From NCBI GenBank assembly GCA_028874215.1, contig JAPPLF010000092.1, forward strand, positions 1 through 64,000: 64,000 nt of DNA, read 5' to 3'. This document shows, piece after piece, positions 22,012-24,021 of this stretch (within the stretch, counting starts at the first letter, position 1; every line of letters begins with the position of its first letter). Under the pieces are notes generated by a model. That model saw nothing but the letters and a program-made list of their open reading frames with translations. It was not told the DNA's origin and searched no databases. Source of the stretch: Acidobacteriota bacterium. GTDB taxonomy: Bacteria > Acidobacteriota > UBA6911 > RPQK01 > JAJDTT01. The translations under genes and the position numbers were made by a program.

Positions 22012-24021
22012 ATGCCAAGATCTAACGGTATGCACAAAGCGTGGAAGTGTTTCGACTCGGCCCTGTCCTTCGGGGCCGGGGTCGCATTCGACACGATCCA
22101 ATTCTTCAACAACTACCGGCCTAACCCGTCGTTCACGCCCAAGTGGTCGGACAAACCTCTGCTCAAGTCGTGGGAGAAGACGAAGCCCACGCTGGGTTGG
22201 CCGCGGAAGACCGATTCTCTCTGCCCCAAGTGCGTGGTCGAAGCCCGGGAGAAGATTCTCGAGGGTCAGGAAGACTACCGCGTCCTGATCGACGAGAAGG
22301 TGGGCGAGATCAAGGCCACCATCATCGAGCGGGACGGACAGGTCTGGATGGTGAAGGAGTGTCCGATTCACGGGAAGTGTGAGGACCTCATGGCCATCGA
22401 CTCCAAGTTTCTCAGTTGGATCGAGTCCAACTTCCCGGGACGGGATATCCGGTCCCACAATGACGCCACGCTCCACAACCACGGGTCCAGCACCATCAAG
22501 CACGGGCGGGGCAGCGTCCTGACGGTCGACCTCACCAATCGCTGCAACATGATGTGCGATCCCTGCTTCATGGACGCCAACCAGGTCGGCTATGTCCACG
22601 AGCTGGAGTGGGAGGAGATCAAGGAGATTCTGGACAACTCGCTGCAGATCAAGCCCCGCAGGCAGATGTCCGTGCAGTTCTCGGGGGGCGAGCCGACCAT
22701 GTCGCCCCATTTCTTTCGAGCTATCAAGTACTCCCGCAAGATCGGCTACAACAGCGTCCAGGCGGCCACCAACGGGATCGAGTTCGCCAAGAGCCTGGAG
22801 TTCTCCAAGAAGGCGTACGAGGCGGGACTGCGCTACACCTACCTGCAGTTCGACGGCATCGGCAACGACGCCAACAGCCACCGCCACATCGGCAACTTGT
22901 TCGATGTGAAGATCAAGGCCATCGACAACATCCACAAGGCGGGGATCGAGATCATCCTGGTCACGACGCTGCTCAACGACGTGAACAACGACCAGGTTGG
23001 CCCCATTATCCGCTTCGCCATGGACAACCCCAAGAAGGTGGCCTTCATCGCCTTCCAGCCCGTCTCCTTCACCGGCCGGGACGAGGCCATCACCGACGAG
23101 CGGAGGCTGCGCCAGCGGTACACGCTTTCTCACCTGGCCCGGGACGTGAAGTCCCAGACGGGATACACCGAACCCACGCGGGATTGGTTCCCCCTCTCCC
23201 TGATGGGCGCGTTCGCCGATTTTGCCGACGTGGCCCACGGCCCCAACGCCGATTGGGGGCAGGTCAGCTGCGGTTGCCATCCCAATTGCGGCGTGGGAAC
23301 CGCCATGATGATCGACAAGGAGACCAAGGAGGCGGCGCCGGTTCCGCAGTTCCTGAACATCCCCGGCCTGGTCAGCGACATGCGGAAGGTGACCGACGCG
23401 GCTCGCGGCACCAAGTTCTCGAATTTCATGATCGGCCTGGCCCTGCTCAAGAACTACAGTCCCTTCAGGGCGCCGTCCCGCCTCACTCTGCTCGACATCC
23501 TCAAGAAGTTCGACAAGAGCTTCGGACTGAGCGGCAAGGACTACGGCCAGGGCAAGGACCGGCGGGACGATCCCTGGAATTTCCTCTTCGTGGCCGGCAT
23601 GTGGTTCCAGGACCTGTTCAACTACGATTTCCGCCGGACCGAGATGTGCATCATCCCCTACGCCACGCAGGAAGGAGAGATCTCATTCTGCGCCTACAAC
23701 ACGGGTCATGGGTGGCGTCAGATCATCGAGAACATGCACAAGAACGCGACCGTCGCCCAGTGGTACAAGGAGCACGGCCGTCACCAGATCTTCGCCGGCG
23801 GCAAGGATGCGCCGCTGCAGAGCTACGATCACTCCTTGCAGATCCGCGCCGACGACGCAGCGCGCGTCCGCGACCGGGGCGACAAACCCCAGACCGCCCG
23901 CGACGAGAAAATGGCGAGGCGCAAGGCCCTTCGGGAGCAGGCCGCGGTGCGTGAGTACTACGAGGAGATGGTGCTCAAGAAAAAGAAGAAGAACGACCTG
24001 GTGACCTTGAATGTCGGCTGA
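22012..24021 (+). CDS. Radical SAM protein of the Tes/Mss (MJ0619-like) type
   Basis: The 669-residue protein has a radical SAM core with CNMMCDPC (Cys178, 182, 185) and FSGGEPTM (223-230). Before it lies a small rubredoxin- or zinc-like module: CPKC (71-74) and KECPIHGKC (115-123). Further cysteines at 420, 422, 426, 546 and 560 could hold auxiliary clusters. This layout is the one I know from archaeal tetraether lipid synthase (Tes, MJ0619), earlier proposed as a methanopterin methylase, and from bacterial Mss candidates for membrane-spanning lipids. Substrate is inference: tail-to-tail fatty-acyl coupling or a pterin reaction. AGGAGG lies 10 bases before ATG 22012. The C-terminus is lysine-rich (KKKKKND). 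Confidence 0.78.
   Translation: MPRSNGMHKAWKCFDSALSFGAGVAFDTIQFFNNYRPNPSFTPKWSDKPLLKSWEKTKPTLGWPRKTDSLCPKCVVEAREKILEGQEDYRVLIDEKVGEIKATIIERDGQVWMVKECPIHGKCEDLMAIDSKFLSWIESNFPGRDIRSHNDATLHNHGSSTIKHGRGSVLTVDLTNRCNMMCDPCFMDANQVGYVHELEWEEIKEILDNSLQIKPRRQMSVQFSGGEPTMSPHFFRAIKYSRKIGYNSVQAATNGIEFAKSLEFSKKAYEAGLRYTYLQFDGIGNDANSHRHIGNLFDVKIKAIDNIHKAGIEIILVTTLLNDVNNDQVGPIIRFAMDNPKKVAFIAFQPVSFTGRDEAITDERRLRQRYTLSHLARDVKSQTGYTEPTRDWFPLSLMGAFADFADVAHGPNADWGQVSCGCHPNCGVGTAMMIDKETKEAAPVPQFLNIPGLVSDMRKVTDAARGTKFSNFMIGLALLKNYSPFRAPSRLTLLDILKKFDKSFGLSGKDYGQGKDRRDDPWNFLFVAGMWFQDLFNYDFRRTEMCIIPYATQEGEISFCAYNTGHGWRQIIENMHKNATVAQWYKEHGRHQIFAGGKDAPLQSYDHSLQIRADDAARVRDRGDKPQTARDEKMARRKALREQAAVREYYEEMVLKKKKKNDLVTLNVG

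Follow-up and report, generated by a model that had tools for sequence, protein, structure and literature searches.

The question raised by this locus is whether an acidobacterial radical SAM gene, which a sequence-only reading had proposed to encode a bacterial homologue of the archaeal tetraether lipid synthase (Tes), could be involved in joining lipid tails into membrane-spanning lipids. Proxies for temperature and pH are built on the brGDGTs and the iso-diabolic acid that soil bacteria make, and the coupling enzyme of aerobic Acidobacteria is to our knowledge unproven. The gene lies in a stretch of 64,000 nucleotides (the window) at the start of contig JAPPLF010000092.1 in assembly GCA_028874215.1. 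The assembly comprises 5.7 Mb and is 97.5% complete, and among named genomes acidobacterial MAGs are the closest to it. Since the DNA comes from an acidobacterium and iso-diabolic acid occurs widely in this phylum, the fit to acidobacterial lipid records that had been suggested for such a host was borne out. Producers of this acid belong to subdivisions 1, 3, 4 and 6 and include the cultured genera Terriglobus and Edaphobacter.

The open reading frame and the motifs CPKC, KECPIHGKC, CNMMCDPC and GGEP were found at the places where the sequence-only reading had put them, and the late cysteines (420, 422, 426, 546, and 560) were exactly as described (Table 1). The protein showed 69–84% amino-acid identity to 76 relatives, with a mean column identity of 62%. 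The cysteines of these motifs were kept at 99–100% among 104–109 relatives, and comparison of the gene with four relatives gave dN/dS values of 0.04–0.06, showing strong purifying selection; the motifs are therefore not due to chance. The helix preceding the rubredoxin-like domain has a hydrophobic moment of about 0.38 and may, judged from the model, make contact with the membrane.

Table 1. Features of the group B gene and of other genes in the window (positions in the window; MJ, numbering of MJ0619).
Feature	Position	Strand	Remark
NfuA-like Fe-S carrier (IscA-type and NifU domains)	21128..21769	-	Divergent neighbour; true start probably inside the ORF
Shine-Dalgarno sequence AGGAGG, perfect	21996..22001	+	10 nt before ATG 22012; read from sequence
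CDS of group B Tes-like radical SAM protein, 669 aa	22012..24021	+	Open throughout
N-terminal helix, residues 5-33	22024..22110	+	Ahead of the rubredoxin-like domain; AlphaFold2 model
Rubredoxin-like/zinc-ribbon site C71, C74 (in CPKC), C117, H120 (in KECPIHGKC)	22222..22371	+	CX2C...CX2H as in MJ0619; ligands per PMC9433317
Region where Tes binds its N-terminal auxiliary cluster, residues 149-167	22456..22512	+	Cys ligands lost
Radical SAM motif CX3CX2C, C178/C182/C185 (CNMMCDPC)	22543..22566	+	
GGEP, SAM-binding motif, residues 225-228	22684..22695	+	
CGCHPNC, residues 420-426	23269..23289	+	C426 = MJ C338 (C-terminal cluster)
M530	23599..23601	+	Labile ligand Met439 of GDGT-MAS
C546, Y550, C560	23647..23691	+	MJ C455, Tyr459, C470 (C-terminal auxiliary cluster and active-site Tyr)
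C-terminal extension, residues 596-669	23797..24018	+	Lys-rich tail
Pterin-4a-carbinolamine dehydratase (PCD)	24063-24512	+	42 bp downstream, same strand
Likely VapBC-type toxin-antitoxin pair	25878-26701	+	PIN-domain protein after short antitoxin-like ORF
Lipoprotein-sorting cluster	28572-32587	+	LolA-like protein, two LolC/E-like permeases, ABC ATPase

Among the NCBIfam models, Tes (NF045702, rSAM_GDGT_ether) was the best match to the window protein (E 6.6e-97, 325 bits, residues 66–577), followed by TrsS (213), and several SPASM maturases were matched weakly. In sequence comparison with solved structures, GDGT-MAS (7TOL/7TOM) alone was close (2e-65). An AlphaFold2 model built on 77 sequences of the family (pLDDT 75, pTM 0.83; weak at residues 145–176 and 539–568) confirmed the expected resemblance to the Tes structure, with a Z score of 21.5 to 7TOL (422 residues aligned, rmsd 3.9 A); the next fold family was MoaA (Z 15.6 over 241 residues). 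The proposed homology to MJ0619 thus held over nearly the whole length and the C-terminal auxiliary cluster set was intact, but the score was below the curated equivalog cut-off of 450 bits and one of the three Tes [4Fe-4S] clusters was missing. The protein shares with GDGT-MAS (MJ0619; 7TOL, 7TOM) the fold, the domain order, the rubredoxin-like site, the RS cluster, the ligands corresponding to C338/C455/C470, Met439, Tyr459 and the SAM loop residues, whereas it differs by its low identity to MJ0619 (about 31%), a long N-terminal extension (first Cys C71 compared to C9 in MJ0619), the C-terminal extension, the extra C420 and C422 and its bacterial host. We place it as a divergent branch, found in bacteria, within the Tes/GDGT-MAS family; by cut-off and cofactor set it is not a canonical member.

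A survey of 396 Acidobacteriota genomes, tallied by best E-value with thresholds set by us, gave group A (canonical Tes) as the best match in 35 genomes, group B in 165, group C in 10 and none in 186. Group B, which includes the window protein, is a distinct acidobacterial lineage, of which 109 sequences were examined. Presence was nearly all-or-none per family: A or B was found in all members of f17 (49/49) and f27 (33/33), neither in f29 (0/43) and f49 (0/16), and a few families were mixed (13/17 in f30). Compared to group B, group A sequences have all three [4Fe-4S] clusters, are about 500–640 aa long (mostly near 540), score 418–619 bits on the Tes model and are patchily distributed. Both groups were present together in several genomes and the genes were neighbours in three genomes of one family, 0.2–5.7 kb apart: L105:5990-7981 and 13654-15480, L106:6256-8415 and 11858-13492, and L107:8842-11001 and 6818-8596, the last pair (group B and canonical tes) on one strand and separated by 245 bp. 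In some families, genomes commonly held two group B paralogues (L088/L089, L086/L087, L093/L103), and L139–L142 formed a second, more distant group B subclade. A shortened copy lacking the radical SAM cysteines (L143), likely a fragment, was set aside. Besides, group B was carried by a Chloracidobacterium-named MAG (L084), and a group B gene 78% identical to that of the window (L041:7845-9802) was found in a MAG named Gemmatimonadetes, reflecting either gene transfer or misbinning.

Of the four metal sites defined in GDGT-MAS by Lloyd et al. (PMC9433317), the rubredoxin-like site (C9/C12/C33/H36 corresponding to C71/C74/C117/H120) was kept at 99% in group B and the RS cluster in 104/104 sequences. 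The same was found for Met439, Tyr459 and C338/C455/C470, a C-terminal cluster ligand set assigned from conservation (window residues 530, 550, and 426/546/560), while the loop residues Q268/S271/R275 and the remaining site ligands were kept in 103–104 of 104 relatives. Since the GDGT-MAS variants M439A and Y459F/L remain active (PMC9433317), conservation of the Met and Tyr supports kinship more than it proves catalysis. Of the N-terminal auxiliary cluster, which in Tes is bound by three cysteines (MJ C73, C77, and C80) and a His, none of the cysteines was kept in any of 104 group B sequences, in which their positions are variable, His and Ser; all three were kept in 19/19 of group A. This absence had been overlooked by the sequence-only reading, which had regarded loss of the auxiliary cysteines as evidence against a Tes-type enzyme: the N-terminal cluster is indeed lost, but the C-terminal catalytic cluster is retained. 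The corresponding region in group B contains invariant H155, H157 and G165-R166-G167 and a near-invariant S160. C420 is invariant in group B but rare in group A, and C422 is common to 84% of canonical acidobacterial Tes. W531 stands in place of the His beside the labile Met, and W568 is also among the invariant residues specific to group B. In group C the N-terminal cluster is kept, but the C-terminal one, Met439 and Tyr459 are mostly missing. Its members (L125–L138; about 435–580 aa) sometimes form overlapping tandem pairs (L138:3679-5286 and 5267-6802; L135:3053-4495 and 4426-5868).

In a tree of 69 rows (LG+C20), in which MJ0619 was the sole well-studied archaeal Tes, group C stood apart and group B formed a clade with 100/100 support on a stem of 1.19 changes per column. 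Group B was placed inside the canonical sequences including MJ0619, next to L119–L121 (100/99), in agreement with the expected position within Tes and not among SPASM enzymes. An arrangement uniting the canonical sequences and MJ0619 without group B was rejected (lnL difference 61, AU p 0.0003). Because of this nesting, which is to be read with the long group B stem and with rooting by group C as an assumption, the N-terminal cluster has probably been lost in group B rather than never gained. The window protein represents a Tes-derived lineage in which the coupling machinery has been kept, and very likely it works like Tes. No description of the A/B/C split or of the N-terminal cluster loss was found in the literature searched, which was covered in part; what appears to be new is the lineage with the reduced cofactor set and the way it is distributed. 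Radical SAM proteins of haloarchaeal plasmids (L145:2893-5171 and L146:2974-5084) were only remotely Tes-like; directly behind each of their genes lies a gene for a methyltransferase, and upstream there are divergent genes for DUF547 and peroxiredoxin-like proteins.

No conserved operon, lipid or other, was found around the group B gene across about 100 loci. Six close relatives shared the NfuA-like divergent neighbour with the window, and in six other loci an IscA-type gene was located about 0.8–1.2 kb downstream of the group B gene. The NfuA-like protein is a possible supplier of clusters, and the two Fe-S carrier arrangements are suggestive, not proof.

From the homology, fold, ligands, phylogeny and distribution described above, we infer the reaction, substrate, product and electron route as follows. 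Group B is a strong candidate for the enzyme that makes the membrane-spanning fatty acids typical of many Acidobacteria, and we consider it fairly likely that it couples the ends of iso-branched acyl tails, giving iso-diabolic lipids. On an iso-branched acyl or alkyl tail, the terminal methyl carbon would lose a hydrogen to a SAM-derived 5'-deoxyadenosyl radical, and the C-terminal auxiliary [4Fe-4S] cluster (C426/C546/C560, Met530) would then hold this tail through a carbon-sulfur adduct. A second SAM would activate another tail, and the two tails would be joined end to end. Without the N-terminal cluster, the enzyme would be expected to carry two [4Fe-4S] clusters and one Fe, and electrons would take a different path, which may lead directly from the rubredoxin-like site. 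The model for this scheme is GDGT-MAS, which uses two SAM to join the terminal carbons of two phytanyl tails, passes through a carbon-sulfur adduct at the C-terminal cluster, and binds ester phospholipids, having been co-crystallised with E. coli phosphatidic acid (PMC9433317). Bacterial iso-branched chain ends resemble phytanyl chain ends (PMC8941075), and in the genus Chloracidobacterium iso-diabolic acid ranks among the main fatty acids (PMC12816986). In the window genome no match to PF09989 (Ger/PlsA) was found, ether formation being checked by this family alone; the genome would thus be without Ger/PlsA, and the simplest prediction is that the product is probably ester-linked.

Thermotoga maritima, which makes diabolic acid, showed no Tes-model match at E<=1e-25, which suggests that tail coupling in this species is the work of a different radical SAM family. 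Sahonero-Canavesi (2022) reportedly described Mss, a membrane-spanning lipid synthase of mainly anaerobic bacteria. Like the reaction proposed here, that of Mss joins fatty-acid tails, to (iso-)diabolic acid, and Mss is said to have the catalytic architecture of Tes (PMC13274423). The plan common to the window protein and Mss that the sequence-only reading had put forward did not gain support from the T. maritima result. Zeng et al. listed 456 bacterial Tes homologues, including some from Acidobacteria, and proposed a role in brGDGT formation (2022; PMC8941075), as was also proposed for those of Solibacter usitatus (Halamka et al., 2023; PMC10087280). The activity of bacterial Tes homologues was still unconfirmed in 2025 (PMC11868695).

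Against Tes-type coupling by group B stand the score below the Tes cut-off, the loss of the N-terminal cluster throughout the lineage, the low identity to MJ0619 and the want of a conserved lipid operon. If the coupling chemistry is the same, the substrate could instead be an ether lipid and the product a true brGDGT (tetraether). Solibacter usitatus makes brGDGTs and GTGTs with two Tes homologues, yet no iso-diabolic acid (PMC10087280), so a Tes homologue alone does not predict iso-diabolic acid; besides, Solibacteraceae MAGs (L013/L023) carry group B. We nevertheless regard a tetraether product as unlikely, given that PF09989 and hence Ger/PlsA is missing from the window genome, that nearly all genomes of whole families carry group B while brGDGTs are known from only a few species (PMC13274423), and that group A is the better brGDGT candidate where both groups co-occur. 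Slightly less probable again is a radical SAM enzyme that, once its N-terminal cluster was gone, turned from lipid tails to another coupling of the C-C or C-S kind. The long stem and the many group-specific invariants (HxH, C420, W531, and W568) would suit such a change, and group C, having mostly lost the catalytic cluster, indicates that the superfamily does seem to change function; against it, none of the cluster ligands involved in coupling varies in group B, and in three genomes the gene is linked to canonical tes.

The remaining readings concern other enzyme families. A SPASM-type enzyme, either a peptide maturase or the GMGT (H-bridge) synthase Gms, would share the radical SAM core and would be in line with the weak maturase matches and with Gms homologues reported from Acidobacteria (PMC11868695). 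Gms also couples lipid chains by radical SAM C(sp3)-C(sp3) chemistry, but carries at its C-terminus a SPASM domain in which four cysteines bind each of two auxiliary clusters (PMC11186832), features that were not found in the window protein. Pfam found no SPASM domain in the latter at E<=0.01, on which ground both SPASM readings were rejected, and as phylogeny and fold point to Tes we regard them as very improbable. The Pfam matches were Radical_SAM, a sub-threshold Fer4_12 and PF23545 ('HMPTM N-terminal zinc ribbon', 1.5e-13), the last of which, together with the adjacent PCD gene, would fit a pterin methyltransferase (HMPTM). However, the methylase activity of MJ0619 was not corroborated by Lloyd et al., who found a hydrophobic tunnel with lipids (PMC9433317), and the PCD neighbour was confined to the window and six close relatives among about 100 loci; this reading was rejected and has hardly any probability left.

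Returning to Tes-type coupling by group B, a further-reaching version is somewhat doubtful and is offered tentatively: group B may be the iso-diabolic acid coupler of aerobic Acidobacteria, with the N-terminal cluster replaced by the invariant HxH and a different electron path, by which a reaction that is normally very sensitive to oxygen could be run in aerobes, and canonical Tes, where present, would make tetraethers. Used as markers, group B and group A make it testable in culturable strains which gene makes which membrane-spanning lipid, and group B presents a natural experiment on the role of the N-terminal auxiliary cluster of Tes.
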